Of a DNA stretch of 24,372 nucleotides, positions 18-16,800 are shown in pieces (positions within the stretch are counted from its first letter, which is position 1; every line of letters starts with the position of its first letter). The notes beneath the pieces are model-generated. The model saw only the letters and a program-made list of their open reading frames with translations, did no database searches and was not told the origin of the DNA. The translations under genes and the position numbers were made by a program. This stretch comes from a virus. Where the stretch lies: positions 1 to 24,372 of IMG/VR virus record IMGVR_UViG_3300042450_000186. One strand, 5' to 3'.

Positions 18-887
18 TCAGATATTCCAATCAACCGTCAAGCCACCCGCAGCCATTGCCGCAGCGTATGTAGTTCCACCACCAGAAAGATTCTGATACA
101 CCTTGGCGTATGGGTCATAGTCGTTGGGATTGGAACTGGCTCCGCTTGGACCAGATATACCAACAAGCGCGTATGCGTAATTAGGAGTATCAGTGGTGTT
201 TCCTGGTGCGTATGAGATACCACCAACAAAAGTATCACTGAACATTTCACCATTCCATATACCAGCCTGAACCACGCGGATTTCCTTGTAATTCTTTTCT
301 GCACCAAACAGATGGGTCTTCATGGTGAAATTCAGCGTAAACACAATACTACGCCGCGTTTCAAAATCACCCTCGTAGTCTTCTTCTGTTGATACAGAAT
401 TCAGATAGATTGGAACATCAATTTTTTTATTGATAGTATCAAAGTTTATAGTAACCACGAATTCAGGAGCAAAAAACGGAAGAATCTGTTCAATGATTCG
501 CAAACCGTCTTCCATGTTTCGCACATACACATACAGTCCAAAGTCAATGTTGTACGGTACTTCTGCGTAGGTGTAGTCTACTCCACTAGGATTGCTTGTA
601 GTGGGACGAACAAAATGCCGTGTCACGCTGTTGCGTTTACGGTTTCCATCGTACATATATCCTGTGATTTCAAAAGAAATACGGGGAAGTGTGATCTGAT
701 TGGGATTTTGTAGATTGGGATCACCTGCAAGCCGCACCTTGAACTTCTCTTTGCCAGCATAGGCAATAGGAACAAGCATGGTTTTTGTGCCACCGCTCTC
801 TTCCTTGTCGATATAGATTTGGTTGAACAAAGAACCAAATGCAGCGACCATGCGGCGAATCGAGCCATTATAGAAGTTGGTGAACAA
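18..887 (-). CDS. gp15: Tail sheath stabiliser / tail completion protein, T4 gp15-like
   Basis: This 289-residue protein matches T4 gp15, the protein that forms a ring at the head-proximal end of the finished tail, locks the sheath and tube, and joins the tail to the neck. The N-terminus (FYNGSIRR, then LFNQIYI) lines up with T4 gp15 (FYNSSFRR, LFSNIQI). The segment IIEQILPFFAPEF around residues 131-144 corresponds to IVEQILPYFQPHF in T4. T4 gp15 is about 272 residues, so the length fits. The start is TTG, directly after the gp14 stop TAA. It is chosen over the ATG at residue 13 because the conserved FYN..RR motif lies upstream of that ATG and because AAGGA sits nine to ten bases before the TTG. 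The glycine/serine-rich C-terminus (residues ~235-285) looks specific to this phage. Identification is secure. Confidence 0.93.
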   Translation of the reverse strand: MFTNFYNGSIRRMVAAFGSLFNQIYIDKEESGGTKTMLVPIAYAGKEKFKVRLAGDPNLQNPNQITLPRISFEITGYMYDGNRKRNSVTRHFVRPTTSNPSGVDYTYAEVPYNIDFGLYVYVRNMEDGLRIIEQILPFFAPEFVVTINFDTINKKIDVPIYLNSVSTEEDYEGDFETRRSIVFTLNFTMKTHLFGAEKNYKEIRVVQAGIWNGEMFSDTFVGGISYAPGNTTDTPNYAYALVGISGPSGASSNPNDYDPYAKVYQNLSGGGTTYAAAMAAGGLTVDWNI

Positions 888-1772
888 TTAATAATTTCCT
901 TCACTGAATGGATCAGCATCAGTATGGTCAAAGATATTGTCTCGCTTTGTTTCCAAATCCAACTGCTCGTTGTCCTGCTGTTCCTGATGTCCTGCACGAA
1001 CTGTGGTTTCGTAAACACCAGAAATCGTATACGAGGCTCCGCTTACAACTCCAATCAGCAGATCACCAACTTCAAAAACACCTTCTCGACGATTCACTCG
1101 CATACTCTTAGCACCCTGAGCAGGATCAGTGAATATATTAACATTTCCGTATGCCTTCTTCGTTGCCAAAGCACCTGTATACACCTCTTCTCCCACAGCA
1201 TAGGTTCCTGTGCCAGTACCAAAGGTAAGCCCTTGCAGATATGAAGAGGAAATCTCCATGATGTCATCCATTTCGGTTTCCCCTGTACTGATCTTCTCAT
1301 TCGAATACTTGAATATTTCGCAACTCAACTTGAATGAATACCGATCACCGCCTGGATAGAACGGATTATCGTGCTTTACAAATTTGATTTCAAACATGGA
1401 GTACGGATAGTCAAAGAAGATGATATCGCCTTCTCGTGGACGACCAAGCCGCCGAATTTCATCATGGTATCCCATGACATCCATGAACCGCTTGCGTGAC
1501 ACAATAAAGGTGGCAGCATCTTTTACATCCAAACCAAATCGACTCATTTCAGCATCGCCATCAAATCCTTCGGCGTTTTCCAAGTACATCTCGATACGAC
1601 TAGAATCCACAAACTCAGAAACTTCTTCTCCAAGAATAAGATCTTCCGTTACCTTTTCGCGTGGCAAATAGATCATCTCATGACCGTGGATTTTGATTGC
1701 CTCGGTCGTGAGTGATTCAAGTAGGCTTTGTTCGCCTTTCTTGTTCCTACGAAAATACGGATTGACTGTCAT
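888..1772 (-). CDS. gp14: Neck protein, T4 gp14-like
   Basis: This 294-residue protein matches T4 gp14, a component of the neck that, with gp13, completes the filled head and provides the docking surface for the tail. Matching landmarks are the N-terminal NPYF, the block HGHEMIYLPREKVTEDLILG (T4: [20 protein letters not shown]), EGFDGDAEMSRFG followed by LDVKDAATF, and PREGDIIFFDYPYSMFEIKF with a nearby NPFYPGG. The acidic C-terminal tail ending DPFSEGNY resembles the T4 end (SPFDNDFMD). T4 gp14 is 256 residues. The extra length here lies mainly in residues ~180-260. The ATG follows the gp13 stop by two bases, with an AGGA site inside the last codons of gp13, so translation is probably coupled to gp13. 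Confidence 0.93.
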   Translation of the reverse strand: MTVNPYFRRNKKGEQSLLESLTTEAIKIHGHEMIYLPREKVTEDLILGEEVSEFVDSSRIEMYLENAEGFDGDAEMSRFGLDVKDAATFIVSRKRFMDVMGYHDEIRRLGRPREGDIIFFDYPYSMFEIKFVKHDNPFYPGGDRYSFKLSCEIFKYSNEKISTGETEMDDIMEISSSYLQGLTFGTGTGTYAVGEEVYTGALATKKAYGNVNIFTDPAQGAKSMRVNRREGVFEVGDLLIGVVSGASYTISGVYETTVRAGHQEQQDNEQLDLETKRDNIFDHTDADPFSEGNY

Positions 1773-1774
1773 GG

Positions 1775-2539
1775 TTATCCTGTAATAAAGTCAGGTGGAT
1801 CCTGATATGTGGTAAGAACAGCGTCTTCAATCTTTAGCATTTCATCCAGTGCTTCTTGATAGATACGCGCTCCATTAAATGTAATATTTCCTGGCAGCGG
1901 AATGCCATCATACTTAGAAAGATTGGCACCCCACTGCCGTTTAATAAGAGCAGTAGTGTATTTCTTTAGCATTGTATCACCGTAGATTTCACCGTATGTG
2001 TCGGGATCAAGTGATGTGTACGCTTCGATAAGCAAGTACTGTCCCGCATAGAAATCCTGCCAGTTCATGTGGATGGTGAGTTTGTTGCCGTATCTGCTGA
2101 ACTGCGTCTGCTTCTCAGGATCAAGCAACTGCTGCAACATTTCCACATACTGCATCGTGGACACAAAGAAGTTCATGTTGGATTGTCCTGTACGCAAACC
2201 GTAAAAGTCATTCAGTGCCATCTGATAGCGAACATTAAACACATTGTTCATCTGTAGATTAAAGCCCACCTGAAACACGCGGCTAATAGAAATAATATTT
2301 GTCCCGTCTAAGCCAAGAGAATTGGTACTAATGTACCCGTTGGTTCTGTCTTGTTCCGTTACCTGATACTTGTAGTACCGCTTTTCGCTGGCGTGGGAGT
2401 TCCAATCCACAAAATAACGGAGAGCCTCATCAATGCGGTCTTCCACTTGCTGGTCATCCACATTGATTTCGATTACTGGTGCTCCCAGTGCGCGAAGGCA
2501 ATAGTCTTTGAGTTCTTGTCGTGTGCGTGGATTCGCCAT
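1775..2539 (-). CDS. gp13: Neck protein, T4 gp13-like
   Basis: This 254-residue protein is the gp13-type neck protein of T4-like phages, a partner of gp14 in head completion and head-tail joining. The N-terminal block LGAPVIEINVDDQQVEDRID (about residues 17-36) is the family signature, followed by ALRYFVDW. An aromatic-rich middle (YYKYQVTEQDR, then LNDFYGLRTGQSNMNFF) and a C-terminal MLKIEDAVLTTYQDPPDFI follow. T4 gp13 is 309 residues, and shorter forms are usual in aquatic T4-like phages. Position directly before gp14 and gp15 confirms it. An unusually elaborate control region precedes it: a late-promoter-like octamer and the ribosome binding site AAGGAG both lie within an inverted repeat (see separate entries), so this gene probably begins its own late transcript. 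Confidence 0.9.
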   Translation of the reverse strand: MANPRTRQELKDYCLRALGAPVIEINVDDQQVEDRIDEALRYFVDWNSHASEKRYYKYQVTEQDRTNGYISTNSLGLDGTNIISISRVFQVGFNLQMNNVFNVRYQMALNDFYGLRTGQSNMNFFVSTMQYVEMLQQLLDPEKQTQFSRYGNKLTIHMNWQDFYAGQYLLIEAYTSLDPDTYGEIYGDTMLKKYTTALIKRQWGANLSKYDGIPLPGNITFNGARIYQEALDEMLKIEDAVLTTYQDPPDFITG

Positions 2540-2541
2540 TC

Positions 2542-2578
2542 AGTGTCTCCTTTATTCTATTTAGAAGAACGAGACACT
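2542..2578 (-). promoter_or_regulatory. Inverted repeat enclosing late promoter and masking the gp13 ribosome binding site
   Basis: On the coding strand the sequence reads AGTGTCTC (2578-2571), a 21-base loop, then GAGACACT (2549-2542), which is a perfect 8-bp stem. The loop contains CTAAATAG. The start of the 3' arm overlaps the ribosome binding site AAGGAG (2552-2547). The 5' arm overlaps the stop of the upstream 88-residue gene. An RNA reading through from upstream can form the stem and hide four bases of the ribosome binding site. An RNA started at the internal late promoter lacks the 5' arm and cannot. T4 gene e (lysozyme) is controlled in this way. The stem and overlap are seen directly; the function is inferred. 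Confidence 0.6.
2557..2564 (-). promoter_or_regulatory. Late promoter-like octamer upstream of gp13
   Basis: CTAAATAG on the minus strand, inside the small palindrome TTCTAAATAGAA. It resembles the T4 late promoter core TATAAATA, which sits at about -10. A start roughly six or seven bases downstream would leave a leader of only about a dozen bases before the gp13 ATG, beginning at or next to the ribosome binding site. The same octamer occurs in the gap before the spike gene at 7858-7865. I saw no copy in the other intergenic gaps. Confidence 0.6.
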
Positions 2579-2843
2579 ACTCGTTTTCGGCTTGAAGACG
2601 AACAACAAGCCTTGCCAATTCACCCTCTCGATTACAAATACGGTCACATTCGGCATCCGTAGACGGCAGATACAGCAGGTTGTGTCCATCTGTTATATAA
2701 TGCCGCACTCCACGCTCGTATACCCGTGTACCAAATCCATGCGGTGCAGAATACGCGGGTTCGATTTTCAGTAAGTCTGCAAATCGGTATTCGTTGCCGT
2801 TGATCTGTACTGTGCCACTGGTTCCATAATGAATGAGTTGCAT
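2577..2843 (-). CDS. Unrecognised small protein (88 aa)
   Basis: I do not recognise this 88-residue protein. It has a clear ribosome binding site (AAAGGA, five bases before the ATG) placed over the end of the upstream adhesin gene, so it is very probably translated. The sequence is soluble, with no signal peptide or membrane segment. The first half is short beta-like segments (TVQINGNEYRFADL, then YERGVRHYITDGHNLLYL). The last ~25 residues (DAECDRICNREGELARLVVR) look helical and may form a short coiled coil. The two cysteines lie in CDRIC. It sits at the border between the adhesion genes and the neck genes. It could be a small virion protein or an assembly helper for the adhesins upstream, but nothing in the sequence decides this. 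Confidence 0.75.
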   Translation of the reverse strand: MQLIHYGTSGTVQINGNEYRFADLLKIEPAYSAPHGFGTRVYERGVRHYITDGHNLLYLPSTDAECDRICNREGELARLVVRLQAENE

Positions 2844-2852
2844 TAGAATCCT

Positions 2853-4691
2853 TTATGTTTTTATTGTATCAATATCAACAATAGTCCCAACAGTCAGAAC
2901 AACTTCTGGAGTATTGGTCTTCTTCGTTGCCTTGGCTTTAGCAGTCACATACAAGAATCCGTTTTTGGTAAGACTAGGAGCGAGTTTTTGAACCAATCCT
3001 TCATCCGCAAATCCATCCAGAAGATACAGATTGGAAGTAGTGGTTACACCAGCAATAACAGTTTTTTGTGAATTTCCCAAATTCAACGCAGAAGTTTGAT
3101 AATGCACCACATCCGCATACAGATTTTTTACTCCACCCGTAGAGAAGGTGTACTGATTGCCTTCAAAATCTGAAAGGGAATACGATCCCGTTCTACCTGA
3201 GATAGTGATGTCATCATAGATGCTGCGAAGCACTGATACATTTTGAGTGGTTGCCAAAAACGAGAATGTGCGACCTGAGAATGAAGCGGAAGGTCCCGCA
3301 AAAAGTATAGGAAAATTGCCTGGCGCAGCACACACACCACGCATTGCGGTAGAACCAACTAAATACGAAATACTGTGATCCACCAAATTTCCCTTCACCT
3401 TTTTTGAGTCTGCAAGCGCGGAAATTGTTGGAGTTACCGTAGCGATGTCCATAGCCGCACCACTATCGTATCCAAACAAATACCCTCTACTACGATCAAA
3501 ATCTGTACCGATGTACCCACCGTTAGTACCAGCAAACAGATCCACACCATGAACCGATGTGGCTTCTCTGCTAATGTTTGCAACACCAACTCGATTTCCT
3601 AGAGGATCAATAAACGAAACAGTAGAAGTAATTCGCTTGGCGTTTTCACAAGGAAACAGACTGCTGCCAATCGGACCATTCATGGTCATGGCATACACCG
3701 TGTAGTCTCCTGCAAACTGTTCTGTGCTGACAGGACCAGAAGCACCGTGACCAAACTCTCGGAGAGCCTCTGTGGTTGCTCCCATGCTAATCATAAGATG
3801 TTCCATCCACCCCTTGAGTGGGCGATCTCCTGATGCACCACTACCAAGCATAAAGTAGCCTGTGCTATTTTTCAAATCCCCACTAATACCTGTGCTTTGT
3901 GAGTATCGCAATCCATTCCAATACGAAGAAACCGTTGCCGATCCTCCTTGATTGGAATAAGCAATAGCAAACTGATGCCATTGGTTCAGCGTGACTCCGT
4001 TTGCTGGACACACATTCAGAATTGTTTGATATCCTGGGCTGCTCCAGTTGCTTGTAGAGAAGTGAAACTGAATTTGTTTGCTGCTTGTGTCGTATTCCAA
4101 ACGGAAGGAATCGTTTGTGGTATCGGTTGCTCCATTAGAACTACGAGTAATTAGAATTGGATCGTATGTGGAGGACGGTTCCGTTTGAAAATACATGAAT
4201 CCCGACATCATGTAATACGGAACAGATGTGGTTGTGAACGCAGGTAATTGAAGTCCTGCTGCCTTGGTATTTGTGTCTAGATACGATCCTTTGAACTGAA
4301 TGGAACGATTACCCAACTCTGTGCCAGTAAGTCCAACTGTTCCCACTGTGGGCAGATATTCGTTAGCAGTAAGTCCACCTAATACGAGTCCATTAACTGT
4401 CTGTGGAATAAACTGTGACTGCAAAACCTGCTCATTCACTCTGAATGTGCCTGTTATTGTACCAGACAGTATTTGCTCTGTGAGTGGATTAATAGAAATG
4501 GACTCTGAGGCAGTGACTCCACCTTCCAAAAAAACAGTTCGTGTTGTGATTTGAGGAGTAGTGTCCTCGTCCATCATAACAGCGTACTGCCCATCACCAA
4601 CACCAGACGGTCGAAACGAATTAGTATCGTATCCGAATTGCTCTGAAATAATTTCGCCAGTGTTGTTTGTTATTACAAGTTTTTTGTTCAT
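2853..4691 (-). CDS. LamG/concanavalin-domain virion adhesin
   Basis: This 612-residue protein contains a concanavalin-like (LamG-type) beta-sandwich at about residues 130-315. The typical order is visible: a strand SIQFKGSYLDT, an exposed segment with DPILITR, the pair FRLEYDTSSKQIQFHF, the strand QWHQFAIAYS, the turn SYWNGLRYSQS, and the closing strand GWMEHLMISMGA. Such domains in phage fibres usually bind sugars. Residues 1-125 form a beta-rich N-terminal region (MNKKLVITNNTGEIISEQFG) that may anchor the protein. Residues ~345-612 are an unrecognised beta-rich region. The ATG follows the spike-gene stop by 13 bases and has only a weak GAG-type ribosome binding site, so expression probably depends on coupling. 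The role as an accessory fibre or receptor-binding protein is inferred from the domain and from neighbours. Confidence 0.7.
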   Translation of the reverse strand: MNKKLVITNNTGEIISEQFGYDTNSFRPSGVGDGQYAVMMDEDTTPQITTRTVFLEGGVTASESISINPLTEQILSGTITGTFRVNEQVLQSQFIPQTVNGLVLGGLTANEYLPTVGTVGLTGTELGNRSIQFKGSYLDTNTKAAGLQLPAFTTTSVPYYMMSGFMYFQTEPSSTYDPILITRSSNGATDTTNDSFRLEYDTSSKQIQFHFSTSNWSSPGYQTILNVCPANGVTLNQWHQFAIAYSNQGGSATVSSYWNGLRYSQSTGISGDLKNSTGYFMLGSGASGDRPLKGWMEHLMISMGATTEALREFGHGASGPVSTEQFAGDYTVYAMTMNGPIGSSLFPCENAKRITSTVSFIDPLGNRVGVANISREATSVHGVDLFAGTNGGYIGTDFDRSRGYLFGYDSGAAMDIATVTPTISALADSKKVKGNLVDHSISYLVGSTAMRGVCAAPGNFPILFAGPSASFSGRTFSFLATTQNVSVLRSIYDDITISGRTGSYSLSDFEGNQYTFSTGGVKNLYADVVHYQTSALNLGNSQKTVIAGVTTTSNLYLLDGFADEGLVQKLAPSLTKNGFLYVTAKAKATKKTNTPEVVLTVGTIVDIDTIKT

Positions 4692-4704: not shown

Positions 4705-7700
4705 TCAATTCGTGATGGATCCGCCCTTGGTTAGAATCGCAGAGTATGTGTTTCCTGCCGCAGGAACCGCGCCATTCAAGCCAATATTTGTTGGCGCAGC
4801 AATGTAATTGTGTTCAGCACCACTTTCATCTCCCAACCAGGTTCGTGTTGTGGGTGCACCGTACAAATACCGATTATTAGTAGTAGATGGTGATCGAGTC
4901 ATAATTTTCTGAGGGGTTGTTCGAGAATCCGAAATGGTTCTAGTTCCTGTTGCAGCAGTATTAGCGGGTATGGCTGAAGCCAGTGATCCATCGCTCACAA
5001 TCACTGATTGTTGATGTGATCCAAACACAGCGTACTGCTGTAGTCCCTGTGCTCCTGCCGTTTGCATATTAGCAGTTCCGCCATCAAACGCAAACATTGA
5101 ACCCGATCCACTCAAGTAAATACTACTTCCTGAATCCGCACGCAGCATAGACTCAGGGGTAGTTTCTTGATAATGCGATCCCCACTTGACACCACTAAGA
5201 GTAGTCCACAAACCCACTCCCGTTCCTGTTGGATTTTCCAGCAACTTTCCTCCAGGATGAGTTACTGCGTATATTCGACCAAAAGACGCAGAAGATGCTT
5301 TGTCAACAAGCACTAGGGGAGTAGGAGATTTACCAGAAGTGATATTAGCATTAACTCCAGCACTAGGATCATTCTCAAGAGGATGCTTAACAAACATTGC
5401 ACCCACGGTGGCTGTACTGTTTTCAGAAACCCGCAAGGCTTTTCCACCAAATCCCGTAATAGACAAATTTCCGACCATTGGCACACCTTCTACTATATCG
5501 TATACTGAAGTACCAAGTGAGGGATTACCTGCAAGAGCACGAGTGCTGCCAACAATAAGTGAAGAATTTCTACGAACATCAACAGGAGAGTATCCTCCAT
5601 TGTAAATAACTAGACTTTTTTCTATATGCATACTAGAGCCGTCTCGAATTCGCACTGCTCCGTTAGAGTAGTTTCCTCTAACAATATTATAATCCCAACC
5701 CCAAGAAAATAGTGTATTAACATATGCGGAAGCGTTTAATGTGTTTGATGCACCGCCTGGCATATTACTGTATCCAATGGTTACACCGTTTGCCCCCTGC
5801 ACAGCAACACTGTTGAAACCAATAGTAATAGAAGCAGAAACACCCGATAAAGTCATGTCTTTATAGAATCTAACACCAAATGTTCCTCCTGCCGTAATTC
5901 CCCGTTTAATGTCAGCAGTATCCATATAACTCAGTCCGTGTGGTGCTGTTTTCACACCATACAGATTCATTAGTTGAAACGAAGTTGCCTGAACTGTATT
6001 GGGTGCAATCAGCGTAGCAGTTGTTCCAACAAGTGCTGCTGGTGTTGCTACTGATAGTGCCTCTCCTGCTCCAAGACTATAGCAGTATCCAAGTTCTACT
6101 TCGGATCCACCTGCGGGATGCATAAACATTTTAGCAACAGGAAAATTCTTCCAGTATGAACTTCCCCCATCATAAGCAATTGCATGAGCCGTTGCTCCTG
6201 TGGTGGAGTTCATTCCAAAAAACATAGGAACATAAACTTGAGCAAGGAATTTGGGAGCATCACCCACACCACTGTATTGCAGTGAACCTGCCCTGAATTG
6301 CGTGCCTGTTAACTCCACCCCACGAGCAGTTGAAGAAATATAGCACCCACTTTGTCTTGAATCAAAGAGTAATTCATTGTTTAATGCTGAACCACTTGTG
6401 AAATCTATGGTGCAGTTTTTTGCTACAATTCCGCGAGTTACTTGAGTTGTGCATATAACAGGAGAATTGTCTAGGGTGTTTTGTACTGCAAATGCAACAC
6501 CATTGTGATTATTGCCAGTGCCTCCCATTTTATCCCAATAGGCAGTAATAATACTATTGTGTCCAGACACTGCTGTATTCATGCCGTAGAAACCTAAATG
6601 CCGAATTGCTACTTTTGCGTTTTCAAAATAGATTCCTGTTCCAAGACTCGAAGAACCAAACGCACTAATCAATCCTTGATTTGTATTCAAAACCGATCCC
6701 GTGGTTCCAATGGTACCAACAAACGGCTCTGCATTGCTTGCAAAGAATAAATTGCGTAAGGCTTTTAGTGTTCCATTTTTCAAAAACAAAACTCCAGTTG
6801 TAGAAGGACTTCCACCACCAGACAAATTAAATCCAGCAGAAATACGAATAACAACAGGATAAGTAGAAAGCAAATATGCGTCTAGAGTGTTGTGAGATAC
6901 ACCAGGATTTACTGGATACTTTACAGTGGTTTGTACAGCACTTAGCCACGGATAAGGACTAGCCTGTTGAGCATTGGTTGGACCGTAGTACCCGTTTGGT
7001 TGCGAGTACTGCGGTTCTGGATAATTGCTTGCAATCCCGCCCCACGAGATAATGTTGTTTACTCCTGCCTTGCCACCACCCCAAGTTAATCCAGGACAAC
7101 GAGTATCTATATTTGCGTTTTGAAATTGAACTTGTAGAACCGCAGTACTTGTTGTGGCTCCAATGATTCGTCCAATTCCTAGAACTGCCAGCGAGTCTTC
7201 GTACGAGACTCCGTGATTAAAGAAATTATCACCTGCATATTCTACAGAGTACGCACTCACACGATAATTAGTGTTATTAACTCCAGTGGGGGCACCTCCA
7301 GATGGATTACTAGGCTTAGTATCAGCATAACCGTACATAGGAGTATCTAATACTGCATTAGTAATAGTGAAATACATTCCCTGATCGGCACTGGTGAACC
7401 CGTGCATGGTGACACCACCCACAGTTGCAGTAACACCATCAAACAAGCGAATGCTGCCTGTGTGTCCACCACCAGCAAAACTATCAATGTTCCAAGTGTA
7501 GTTCTCTACTTGCCACAAGTATCGCTGTTTGAATTCCGCAGGATCACCTTCAATAATAAGGTTTCCACCTTGTGGGTGGTACAGGTCTACATTTTGAGTA
7601 ATTGTATATTCACCACGCAGAAAGCGGATGTACAGGGTGGCACTTCCCACAATTGTATAAGTACGAGCAACATCCATACACTTTTGCAGAGTAAGATACG

Positions 7701-7830
7701 GCTTTGCCAGACTGCCGTCTCCTGTGCCGTCATTGCCGCTTGGTGCTAAGTAGATCACCGAATCGGTGGCAAGCACCTTTAACTGCTCTAGTGCTGGATT
7801 ACTTGGATACGGAAGTGCTGATTGTGCCAT
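4705..7830 (-). CDS. Right-handed beta-helix tail spike/fibre protein
   Basis: The start of this 1041-residue protein has the signature of parallel beta-helix proteins of the pectate-lyase type: VIYLAPSGNDGTGDGSLAKP followed by LTLQKCMDVA (residues ~25-55), then LYIRFLRGEYTI and NLIIEGDP. Residues ~720-915 show helix rungs of a common form: AVRIRDGSSMHI, VDVRRNSSLIVG, ALRVSENSTATVG, LVLVDKASSASFG and MLRADSGSSIYL. Phage proteins with this fold are trimeric spikes that bind or cut surface polysaccharide. I cannot point to catalytic residues, so enzyme activity is open. The glycine/serine-rich C-terminus (~960-1041) is unlike the rungs and may be a trimer tip. A late-promoter-like octamer lies 28 bases upstream and AGGAA serves as ribosome binding site. 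Host-surface recognition is inferred. Confidence 0.75.
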   Translation of the reverse strand: MAQSALPYPSNPALEQLKVLATDSVIYLAPSGNDGTGDGSLAKPYLTLQKCMDVARTYTIVGSATLYIRFLRGEYTITQNVDLYHPQGGNLIIEGDPAEFKQRYLWQVENYTWNIDSFAGGGHTGSIRLFDGVTATVGGVTMHGFTSADQGMYFTITNAVLDTPMYGYADTKPSNPSGGAPTGVNNTNYRVSAYSVEYAGDNFFNHGVSYEDSLAVLGIGRIIGATTSTAVLQVQFQNANIDTRCPGLTWGGGKAGVNNIISWGGIASNYPEPQYSQPNGYYGPTNAQQASPYPWLSAVQTTVKYPVNPGVSHNTLDAYLLSTYPVVIRISAGFNLSGGGSPSTTGVLFLKNGTLKALRNLFFASNAEPFVGTIGTTGSVLNTNQGLISAFGSSSLGTGIYFENAKVAIRHLGFYGMNTAVSGHNSIITAYWDKMGGTGNNHNGVAFAVQNTLDNSPVICTTQVTRGIVAKNCTIDFTSGSALNNELLFDSRQSGCYISSTARGVELTGTQFRAGSLQYSGVGDAPKFLAQVYVPMFFGMNSTTGATAHAIAYDGGSSYWKNFPVAKMFMHPAGGSEVELGYCYSLGAGEALSVATPAALVGTTATLIAPNTVQATSFQLMNLYGVKTAPHGLSYMDTADIKRGITAGGTFGVRFYKDMTLSGVSASITIGFNSVAVQGANGVTIGYSNMPGGASNTLNASAYVNTLFSWGWDYNIVRGNYSNGAVRIRDGSSMHIEKSLVIYNGGYSPVDVRRNSSLIVGSTRALAGNPSLGTSVYDIVEGVPMVGNLSITGFGGKALRVSENSTATVGAMFVKHPLENDPSAGVNANITSGKSPTPLVLVDKASSASFGRIYAVTHPGGKLLENPTGTGVGLWTTLSGVKWGSHYQETTPESMLRADSGSSIYLSGSGSMFAFDGGTANMQTAGAQGLQQYAVFGSHQQSVIVSDGSLASAIPANTAATGTRTISDSRTTPQKIMTRSPSTTNNRYLYGAPTTRTWLGDESGAEHNYIAAPTNIGLNGAVPAAGNTYSAILTKGGSITN

Positions 7831-7865: not shown

Positions 7866-10800
7866 CAGAACACTACAACCTGAATAGATTGCAGTCTATC
7901 GGCAGCGGTATCAATAATTTGATCTCCATTGCGTGATTCTACTCCAATAGTAAAAGTACTAGCAGTTCTTGTAGAAATAGTACACACAGCACTTTCTACA
8001 TTTCCTGATGTTACCTGTAATCTTTGTGGAGTTGCTACAACCACATAGTTCGTAGTAGGCATATTTGAATTAAAGGTAAAAGTAAACTGTCGATTTCCAT
8101 CATATACTACTGATGCAATATTTCCTGAATTAGTAAGACTAATAGCACTCCCACTCCAGGTAGCAACCCCCCACGCTCGTGCGCCAAAGATGGGCGCGGT
8201 TCCACTCGGAACATCCAATCGCGCTGAACCAAGAGTGATTCCACCCGCAGAAATCCCACCACCCGCATACAGCGCACCAGCAACACCAAGACCACCCACC
8301 ACTGTGAGAGCACCTGTAGTAGTGGAAGTAGAGGCTGAGGCTACTGGTATATTAATACGACCATTGTCATAAATTACGAGTCTATCAGTAACAGCATTGG
8401 TTGTCATGTGTTGTGATGCAATTGCAAGCCCGTAACCAGTGTTGTCTCCACCGAAAACAATTCTATTGTAGATTGGATTTTCTGAACTAGGCACAAAACT
8501 TATTGCACCAACAGCACCCGAAGTAGTTCCATTATGAATCAAAGCACCACCCAAATTAATTCGCATACGGTTTGCTCTTCCACCAGTTTGGAACACCAAA
8601 TCATTGTAGTAAGAGCCAATAATTGTGTTGCCACTAGCAGCAGGAACTCCCTCAAATACAACTGATGAGTTTGTCCATCCACCTACGCCAGCATTAGTAC
8701 CGAGAGGAATAATACTAAAAGCACTAGTACTCTGAGCATTTCGACCAATTATTCCCCCCGTATAACCGCTAGTATTTGAAACTACTTCAAGTTTGTTAAC
8801 TGGTGCATTTGTTCCAATACCAACATTACCACCAAAAGTTGCTGTAGCACCAACATTCAGTGCACCACCAATTCCTGCACCACCCGCACCCGTAACAACT
8901 AGAGCACCCGAAGTACTACTGGTAGATGCTATCTCAGACTGAACATCTAAACCTCCAGTGGATAGAATTGCGACTTTTGGAGTCAATGAGGCAGTTGCAC
9001 CTACTGCTGATGTATGAAATCCTATTCTGCCGTTGTCGGTGAATCGAATAAATGTTTGTGCTTGTTCGGTGAACTGTCTGGTTTCCGCTGTACTTCCTGG
9101 ACTTGCATTGAAATTATTACCAATACCGCTACCACTATAAGTTTGTTGTGGTTCACTAGCCCACATCAGCAGTGCCGAACCTGCGCTAGTACCGTTTCCA
9201 ATAAAAGTTCCGTTACCTTCTCCAGAGGCAACTAGTTGTATTTTAGTATTATTATGCACTCCTATTGCACGAATCATATTACCGTAAGCACTAACAGTAG
9301 TATAATTTCTAGGAGCACCAAGATTCAAATTACCAGCAGAAGTAATCCCTCCTCCCGCAGAGATTCCACCACCCACATTGAGCGCACCCGCAATTCCTGC
9401 ACCACCAGCCACCACCAGTGAACCCGAACCCGTAGAAGTGGATGTGGTGTTAACAGAGGCGTTTAGACTATTAGCCTGAAATGTTCCTGTGCTTACAATA
9501 TTACCAGAGTTTATAGTACCAGTAGTTTTAATTGCTCCTGATCCCAAATCTAGTCTAGCCGCAGTAATTCCTCCACCAACATTCAATGCAAGACCAATTC
9601 CTGCACCACCTGCCACGGTAAGAGCACCTGTAGCCGTATTGGTGGATGGAGTTGTAGCAGAAGCAGCGAGACTAGTAGCGGTAAATGTTCCCGTGCTGAT
9701 ACTTCCACTTTTTACCTGTCCCGAACAATCTAGTGTAGCAGCAGTGATTCCACCGCCAACGGTAAGCGCACCACCCGCAGAGATTCCCCCAACAACATTA
9801 AGTGAACCAGCAGCAGAGATTCCTCCACCCACATTCAGCGCACCGCCAATTCCTACACCGCCCACCACTGTGATTGCGCCTGTAGCAGTGGAATTGGAAG
9901 TAGCATTTGATGCAGCGTTCAGAGTATTTGTCTGAATTGCACTCACATATAGGGCACCAGCAATTCCTACACCACCTGCTACGGTAAGAGCACCAGTAGT
10001 TGTAGCAGTGGACGCGGTGGTATTCGTTACTCGTGTTAAACCGCTAAAGGTAATACCACCAGCAGCACTAATCCCACCACCAACGGTAAGGTTTTTAGCA
10101 ATTCCCGCACCACCACCAAGAGTGAGTACACCTGAGTTTGTAGATGTAGACTCTGTAGTGGAGGGGATATTCAACTCACCCGCAGCGGACAGGCGAAGTT
10201 TTTCAGTACCACCATTTTGCCAAACATGACCGCTCCATGCATTGTAAACACTGTTATTGCTTCCGTCAACGCCTATAGTGCCGTAGACAGTTGCAGAACC
10301 AAAACCAATATGTGGAATTCCACTAGCAACCACATGAAGTTGCGTTAGTGGACTTGTGGTTGCTATACCGAGTCTACCAGCATTACTCAACCGCATCCGC
10401 TCTACACCACTAGTTCCGTCATTGGTCTTGAACAGCAGGGCTTCACCACTGCCGCCTGGACGCAGTGAGCCGTCCCGCAGATCACCCACAAGCAGACTGG
10501 TGTACGGAATGTCGATGCCGTCAATAATGGCAGCGCGTGTGTACGGCGAGGCTTTAATGATATACCGCACCACGGTGTAGGGCGGTATATTTGCAACCAA
10601 TCCACCCGATGCAGCAGCGGAAGTTACATAAGCACTAGTACCAGTAGCAACACCAGTGCCAGCGATGGTGGATTCTTGTCCACCCTCCGAACCAATGGAA
10701 TAGATAGCAGAGATGGCAGAGTTGTTTGCCGTATCACTTTCAAGATCATTAATTGTAGGCAATCTTGAGGTGTTTTCTCCAATCGCAAATCGCCCACGCA

Positions 10801-13817: not shown

Positions 13818-16800
13818 TTATTGAATAAAACTCACTGTACGGATGTTACGAGCAGCAGGAGTCTTGAAATATGTAGAGTTTTGTGCAGTGGAAGTCAGTA
13901 CAACCTGTATCTGATACGAGGTGAATGCTCCTGAAGGTAAAGCAACACGGAAGGCGGCTTCTCGGAAATCAATTTCTGAATTACTAGTAAAGGAAGCACT
14001 GGTTTGTGGCATGGGGAGGAATCCCTTGGAGAATATATCGGTTTCTCCACTCAGACAATATCTGTACTTCACCGCAATAGCAGATCCTGTTGGAATATTT
14101 GCGTCTACAAATACAGCAATTCCGTTTGATGCCGTGGATTCCGACAACTCCACTACTCGTGAAACATATGTTGATGTTGGAGTGCTATTGGTGGCGTACA
14201 TAGTAACACTAGCAGCAAACAGAGCAGAAATATCAATCACAGGAGACACTGATGTGTTTGCTCCTCTGTTTAGGGAGTATCGTAGATCTGGGTTACCTGT
14301 AATAAGAGTCTTTAAATATACAGATTGGTTGTTCAAGAAGTTTTCACTAAAGTTTCCACTACTAATGGTGCGAGAAAGGGTGCAACTGCTTGGAACAATC
14401 TCTGTAGCGTAGAACTTCAGAATTTGAGCATTAATACAGTTACTGAGTCCACTGTATAAGATATTACCAGATTCAACAAACGAACACCTGTTCAGCGTGA
14501 ACATAAGATCTGCGGTGTTGTTCTGTACTGCTGCACCGATTCCTTGTGGTGTAAACAAGGTTCCTACCAACTGATTGTTTCCTGCGCGACCCGCAACAGC
14601 CGAACTATTGGTGATGGTATTAATTGCACTCTCGGCAGCAAACAATTCGTATTTATCGCTGTTTGCCAAAACGCAGATAGCGTATTCACCTGGTTCAAGA
14701 TACACAGGACTACTAAAGGTGAAAGTTGTTGCTGTTGGTGATGCAGAATTAGCCACTACATCTGCTGCGTCTTTCACCACTGTACTAAACGGCATCACCA
14801 CAGAAGGGGATGGATATCCAGAAACCGTTGGACGAATCTGAACCGTTACTGGTAGTGTAGAGTCTTTTGCAGCAAAATAAAGATCTGCGCTACTCAGGAA
14901 TATACCATCAGGATTTGCTTTCTTGTCAACCAAGAATGTTTGTGATAGAGGATCACTCCAATGATTGTTCTCAACAGAGTCAATGTCTCGATTGAATGGA
15001 TCTTTGGCAATGCTTTCACTTGCAGCAGTTTGACGACGCAGTTCAGGTGGACGAGTAGAGTACGAACCAGAATCGCGTTGCTCCAAAAGACCAGTGCAGT
15101 AGTACACTGCTTCTGCTGCAATAGTGGAATTAGCCGTAACAGAAGAATCAGAAATACGAACAGTTCTTTGTCCTGCCAAGAATGTACCACCAGAAATTCC
15201 AAAAGATACTGTGCATGAGCCGTAAGTATCAGTGCTAATACCACTCTTGACTACTTCTCCATCAAAATACAGAGAGAGATTTGTAGAATTGGGTTTCAGT
15301 CCTGCAACAGTTGCAGTCACGGTATTGAGTGGAATATAAGGAACCACACTGCGGTCAATTACCCGCGAACCAATGCGGTGCTTGATGCGGTTCTTTAGTT
15401 GACGAGCACTAATAAAATTGCTAGTCTTCTGATTAATGCTCTGCACTGTACGAGAAACACCTACTCGAATGCTGCCAGAGTTTACCGATGGAATTGCGGA
15501 TGTGGATGCCACATGGGGAAGTTCAACAATGCGCTTCTGTATATCGTCTTGTTCTTCTTCAACCTGATCTATGCCTGTCCATATACTTTCCCACTCATTC
15601 CACTGCGTACCAAAGCCACGCTTGTTGTTTGCATCAGATGAAATCCAATTGTCATTTTCTGAAAGTGCATTAGTCTTAACAGCAGGACGATATCCTGTGT
15701 CATAGAATGGTTCAACAGAAGTAGACAATTTCATAAATCCAAGCCAGTTAACCGTGTTGGACGGATTAATCTTGATTCTATTTGTGTACTGTTTGTTTTC
15801 AATATAAGCAGGAGTGGTGTAATCAAGAGTAATCAATCCATCTGAAGAAACCACGGTATTGATTGGGGTTGGGGAATTAATTGAAATTTCTTGAGTTGTG
15901 AAGAACGGACGCAATTCGCCACGCTCAAAATCAATAGAACATGAATTAGAGTAATCACATACATCTGAAACGGAGTGTCCGTAGAACTCATCAGAGAAGA
16001 TGGATGTTTTCAGGGGTTCTGCGGCTGCACAAGTTCCACGAAGGGATCGTGCTTCTATTTCAGATTCCGATAAGGACAGTTTAGCAAACACTTCAACTTC
16101 ATCCACTCGCTTCTGAATCTTACCAATGTCTGCCATAGTGAATCGCTTGGTGTCTACAGGAGTAACCACCACATCACTTTCGTTGTGTGTGTACGAAGGA
16201 ACAGTTACAGTAGCAAGCACAAGAGCATCAGCAGGATCAGGTGGAGCCGAAGGCGATAGATCGGGTGTTCCTTCCACAAAGAAGAAAAGTGCAGATCCGT
16301 CTTCAGGATCAGCCTTTACACACAATTTGTCGATGCGGGGCAGATAGTGATGGTATGAAGCAGTGGTAAATGATGGAACCACAATATCAGTGGCACCATA
16401 CGGCTTCAGCATTGGAGCGGGTGATGTCAATCCTGAATGACGGAAGTCCAAGCAATTTGCCAAAGACACAGTTTTACCTGTGCGCGGATTGGTGTACAGT
16501 GGAATCTGAGCATACGGGAACTCAGAACCAGTAGAAGCAAAGTACGAATGTTTGCCGATAAATGGTGCAGCAGCCAATCCTCCGTGAACAAAACGCGAGT
16601 AGGTAACACGAAGAATAGCGTTGTTTCCTGTGGTGTATATTTCTTTAGTCGCAGCACTCTCTTTAATGTACAGACGAGAATTTTCGTAATGGGTTTCTCG
16701 CTGACCGTCATCCAATTCAAAATCATTGGTGTAGTCTATTGATGGTGTACCATTATTAACAACCGAAGCAATAGCGTATACATCAATATGAGGAATAGTA

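Follow-up and report, generated by a model that had tools for sequence, protein, structure and literature searches.

In phage T4, the lysozyme gene e has one or more late promoters just upstream of its ribosome-binding site; RNA started further upstream folds over the Shine-Dalgarno (SD) sequence, and the late RNA is made without the 5' strand of that fold (PMC3014915). Hairpins at the ribosome-binding sites of soc and gene 49 likewise silence upstream-started RNA (PMC3014915), and in the leaders of I-TevI, I-TevII, segB, and mobE a hairpin sequesters the ribosome-binding site and holds a late promoter within it (PMC2988022). I-TevI, in addition, represses its own late promoter via an overlapping operator (PMC2988022). 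The trick of gene e is known for few T4 genes, and we found none described for a virion-assembly gene like gp13; our literature search for a gp13 case gave the known T4 cases only, in line with the preliminary description of this DNA, whose author knew of no neck gene controlled in this way.

The window analysed here, a stretch of 24,372 nt (positions 1-24,372 of IMG/VR record IMGVR_UViG_3300042450_000186), comes from an uncultured T4-like phage and found no match in a nucleotide search of phage records. Its minus strand carries gp15, gp14, gp13, and an 88-aa ORF, followed by larger genes including those of tail-fibre-like and baseplate proteins. In the leader of gp13 we describe what is very probably a promoter-in-hairpin translational switch of the gene e type, placed ahead of gp13-14-15. 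Features that class it with gene e were found by sequence and computation: a promoter lying between the arms of a hairpin, the SD under the 3' arm, a stem that is kept among relatives, and the late transcription machinery of the clade. As in T4 e, a late promoter stands by the ribosome-binding site and read-through RNA is predicted to fold over the SD. In T4 e, however, it is an early RNA that is silenced, whose translation would bring on lysis too soon, whereas the gene controlled here encodes a neck protein and has a late-type promoter as the nearest one found upstream. The homing endonuclease leaders (I-TevI, I-TevII, segB, and mobE) have the same ribosome-binding-site hairpin with an internal late promoter as the window, but these selfish genes lie within early or middle units and are not virion-assembly genes; soc and gene 49 share the hairpin with the window and are not neck genes.

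The gp13 leader of the window

All features of the element lie on the minus strand. The controlled gene, gp13, encodes the neck protein known as head-tail adaptor Ad2 (1775..2539; phrog_211, E 8e-40, with tblastn matches to Cr30 and other neck proteins), and the downstream cistrons encode the neck protein gp14 for head closure (888..1772; Pfam T4_neck-protein, E 3e-28) and the tail sheath stabiliser gp15 (18..887; Pfam T4-gp15_tss, E 6e-64). Directly upstream of gp13 is the 88-aa ORF (2577..2843), which gave no match in searches of Pfam and PHROG. The leader reads GAG-TAG-TGTCTCGTTCTTCTAAATAGAATAAAGGAGACACTGA-ATG. Its 5' arm, AGTGTCTC (2578-2571), would be part of read-through RNA only, and its 3' arm, GAGACACT (2549-2542), overlaps the gp13 SD AAGGAG (2552-2547). 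The arms form a perfect 8-bp inverted repeat, which reaches 11 nt at 91% when extended (repeat I10). Between them lies a T4-type late promoter octamer, TCTAAATA (2565-2558), from which a late transcription start at 2552 (+/-2) is predicted, this being the sixth base past the octamer according to T4 spacing. The preliminary description was exact about the inverted repeat flanking a late promoter and about the overlap of its 3' arm with AAGGAG; the promoter motif it had placed in the loop is present as well, but the full octamer is TCTAAATA, an Aeh1-like form with 'C at -12'. The usual late promoter form of the clade, NCTAAATA, fits the Aeh1-type late promoter consensus named in PMC2988020.

The 37-nt element has a computed fold of -13.7 kcal/mol, and the 64-nt leader reaches -18.4 compared with -9.7 +/- 2.4 in 200 shuffles (z = -3.6). 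The computed cost of opening the SD was about 8.5 kcal/mol when the 5' arm was included and fell to 1.7 in its absence, the latter value being identical for any RNA start from 2552 to 2560, which supports the earlier proposal that read-through RNA would be folded and RNA from the internal promoter free. Expressed as ddG, the extra cost of SD opening in read-through RNA, the same measure was positive for known T4 cases taken as controls, with 10.8 for T4 e, 10.7 for I-TevI, 11.1 for I-TevII, 5.9 for gene 49, and 4.2 for segB; soc gave no score with the promoter picked by the analysis rule. A reading of the hairpin as an intrinsic terminator was rejected, as the 3' arm is followed by GAAUGG without a U run and no site was called there. 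Likewise, a riboswitch or another catalogued RNA family was rejected, as a search of 1700-3000 with the Rfam covariance models, at E up to 1, gave no match.

Maintenance of the stem in related leaders

Relatives of the clade, a group of uncultured T4-like phages, were gathered by scans with gp14 and the 88-aa ORF, resulting in 48 distinct gp13 leaders, which were dereplicated to 28 for the energy tests. In nearly all of the 48, NCTAAATA has an anti-SD beside it or nearby, with the sequence TCTYC(T) or one much like it, and in most of them the core TCTYC directly adjoins TAAATA. Across these leaders the arms vary in sequence and sometimes in register, with complementarity to the SD mostly kept. 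Besides the pair of the window (AGTGTCTC/GAGACACT), arm pairs that differ yet still pair include CCGT/ACGG in L007 and L267, CCTCT/AGAGG in L264, CTGTTC/GAACAG in L257, GTCTCCT/AGGAGAC in L300, and TTCTG/CAGAA in L248, and many stems contain G.U pairs (TCTTCT/AGGAGA). The anti-SD has a different register in the window and in L309, L310, L312, and L248, the latter four having it further upstream.

Over the 28 dereplicated leaders, SD opening averaged 6.2 kcal/mol for read-through RNA but 1.0 for late RNA, with a difference of at least 3 in 24 of them. Their ddG of 5.20 compares with 1.36 after their 5' parts had been exchanged for those of 47 other late promoters from these phages (z 11) and with 2.31 in shuffles (z 10). 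The preliminary description had proposed to look for covariation, with uncompensated divergence of the arms speaking against the hairpin; among the clade leaders, a change in one arm is compensated in the other as the arms diverge, an outcome in favour of the hairpin. Covariation of the outer arms, taken over bases outside the GGAG core of the SD only, had P = 0.0008, and swapping 5' parts among clade leaders, which covers the whole stem with its shared core, still lowered ddG (P = 0.018), although the leaders are mutually related, so that the tests by swapping and permutation may treat them as more independent than they are. Weak or negative members are L303 (ddG -0.8) and L317 (ddG 1.1), and L012 does not fit, as TAAATA is absent at the expected place and its hairpin would also be in RNA from an upstream promoter. 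Because registers shift and stem sequences differ, complementarity appears to be actively kept, and sequence comparison indicates that the stem is kept by selection in the relatives.

Eight records of the clade, 39 to 150 kb in size, contain 59 late-promoter sites before genes, mostly of the form NCTAAATA. TCTYC before CTAAATA occurs at only two kinds of these sites, those of gp13 and of one other gene in G004 (L391-L394). This second gene, on the reverse strand at ~10911 of the reversed record, has a TCTCCTAAATA...AGGAG arrangement, and its product of 124 aa is like a starvation-inducible transcriptional regulator (phrog_858). As families of the late sigma factor gp55, the co-activator gp33, and the clamp gp45 are encoded in several clade records, late promoters are expected to work in the clade.

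These comparisons also bear on other ways to read the element. The stop codon TAG of the 88-aa ORF (2579-2577) shares 2 nt with the 5' arm, and in several relatives the ORF ends on the TAA within the late promoter CTAAATA itself; a terminating ribosome could open the hairpin, and gp13 might be translated from read-through RNA only if ribosomes finish the 88-aa ORF, which is conserved in the clade and found at 54 related loci, and melt the hairpin at its stop. Such coupling is unlikely as the main purpose, because the stop lies at variable distances of 23-47 nt from the ATG and an SD-occluding hairpin is also kept in four leaders without a recognisable 88-aa ORF (L301, L309, L310, and L312); it may be added on to the switch and does not explain the conservation of the hairpin. 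Read as DNA, the symmetric 8-bp arms flanking the promoter might be a two-fold operator for a late-promoter regulator, a possibility for which the operator overlapping the late promoter of I-TevI is a precedent (PMC2988022). However, arm sequences vary between close relatives, the register moves with the 3' arm staying on the SD, and G.U pairs break the symmetry of DNA but not the pairing of RNA; given the shifting register and the G.U pairs, we rejected this very improbable operator.

That TCTYC abuts TAAATA in most gp13 leaders would also suit an extended late promoter of the clade, TCTYCTAAATA, with an incidental match to the SD. This was rejected as highly unlikely on account of 50 other late promoters in the eight clade records, all of them without TCTYC, and neither the more upstream anti-SD of L309, L310, L312, and L248 nor the covariation of bases outside the core agrees with it. 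An inverted repeat formed by chance would be conceivable from the window alone: inverted repeats of 8 bp are common in its 24 kb (64 pairs listed), TATAAATA with one mismatch was seen 27 times compared with 25 expected, and the coincidence of arms, promoter, and SD had p = 0.02 against 5' parts from other gp13 leaders and p from 0.00 to 0.08 against shuffles, the highest value belonging to the wide shuffle. Maintenance across the clade with covariation led us to reject chance, which is extremely improbable at that level. The coincidence of arms, promoter, and SD beats chance, moderately in the window alone and overwhelmingly in the clade.

Predicted transcripts reaching gp13 and the likely role of the proposed switch

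The nearest promoter found upstream of gp13 is a late-promoter-like octamer, GCTAAATA, on the minus strand at 7866-7859, before a gene encoding 1041 aa (4705-7830). RNA that reads into gp13 would probably come from this promoter, and on the minus strand nothing like a terminator was found from the start of the 88-aa ORF to gp13. RNA from the upstream tail-fibre cistrons would hold both arms and fold, pairing the gp13 SD with the upstream anti-SD, so that 30S subunits would bind poorly and translation would be poor. RNA from the promoter in the loop, predicted to begin at about the SD, would be made without the 5' arm and keep the SD open. The output of gp13-15 would then follow their own promoter and be insulated from the amount of tail-fibre transcript.

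The upstream promoter found is also late-type, which points to insulation of gp13-15 and not to early/late timing, and judged from the sequence, insulating gp13-15 from the tail-fibre transcript is the likely role. The preliminary description had claimed that synthesis of gp13-15 strictly follows the late promoter. Dependence on their own promoter is likely, but 'strictly' is too strong, as ribosomes terminating at 2577, the end of the 88-aa ORF, would cover the 5' arm and could open it.

gp13 leaders of other T4-like phages

T4 gene 13 is the same gene as gp13 of the window and has a similar place in the late map, but in its leader our rule, which asks for a predicted start 9-45 nt before ATG, found no late promoter; an SD hairpin is also lacking, and a terminator-like GGGGCCGCAAGGCCCC hairpin precedes the SD instead. 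Elsewhere in T4 (L237), a palindrome at 16428-16479 is common to the divergent late genes 26 and 51 and puts an anti-SD upstream of each of their promoters, and each gene scores about 10 kcal/mol. Most cultured relatives that were checked, including T4, showed no clear hairpin over the gp13 SD, and Caulobacter phage Cr30 was rejected as a clear cultured example, its hairpin being weak (ddG 1.5). In this phage (L233), late genes with TAAGTA-type promoters at 9485, 4949, 173, and 1895 have a downstream spacer that pairs with the SD region, an effect with P = 0.009 across 13 genes.

Late promoters are present in 170 of 224 gp13 leaders taken from T4-like contigs, usually 10-25 nt before the gene (predicted start to ATG). 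In a first general test, where only the region upstream of the promoter was swapped, the effect was smaller because in many phages the 5' arm comes after the octamer and ahead of the start site; the revised swap replaced everything upstream of the predicted start. With 99 dereplicated leaders, masking of the SD in cis was 2.42 compared with 1.36 for swapped 5' parts (z 6.0), and values of at least 5 kcal/mol were reached by 19 of the 99, where 5.4 were expected and none of 20,000 draws gave more than 15. Other late genes of the same loci had a z of 1.7, and control genes without a late promoter a z of -0.5. Outside the clade, the strong arrangement was present in 7 of 22 gp13 clusters, clear examples including L084 with a 13-bp stem, L111, L122, L225, L025, L014, and L172/L179/L160. 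The per-cluster mean of these 22 clusters showed no significant shift (P about 0.2), and we therefore claim no general rule for gp13: as read from the sequences, the arrangement recurs outside the clade and is not general.

Other relations between promoter and gene were seen at gp13 as well. In Synechococcus phage ACG-2014e (L407, ~350-400) and in the gp13 leader of L067, a strong hairpin directly ahead of gp13 carries a late promoter octamer (CCTAAATA or GCTAAATA) in its loop and has a T run behind it, which makes this a promoter inside an intrinsic-terminator-like hairpin. In L062, L060, L052, L061, and L068, the late promoter is so near to gp13 (e.g., TATAAATAGTATT-ATG) that the predicted start is the ATG, as for leaderless RNA.

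Tentatively, the gp13 leader might be a recurrent insulation point of T4-like phages, situated at the border between fast-changing tail-fibre genes and conserved neck and packaging genes, where a late promoter would have been joined to an anti-SD, or set in or next to a terminator, repeatedly and in separate lineages. Production of the neck proteins would then depend on their own promoter alone, regardless of insertions upstream. The switch of gene e is usually explained as early silencing of lysis or of selfish genes; its presence, under selection, at a unit for virion assembly that follows another late unit suggests further uses in T4-like phages, namely to separate neighbouring late units and to set protein ratios. 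Its sequence rule, an anti-SD fused to CTAAATA, can be scanned for and is testable with simple reporters.
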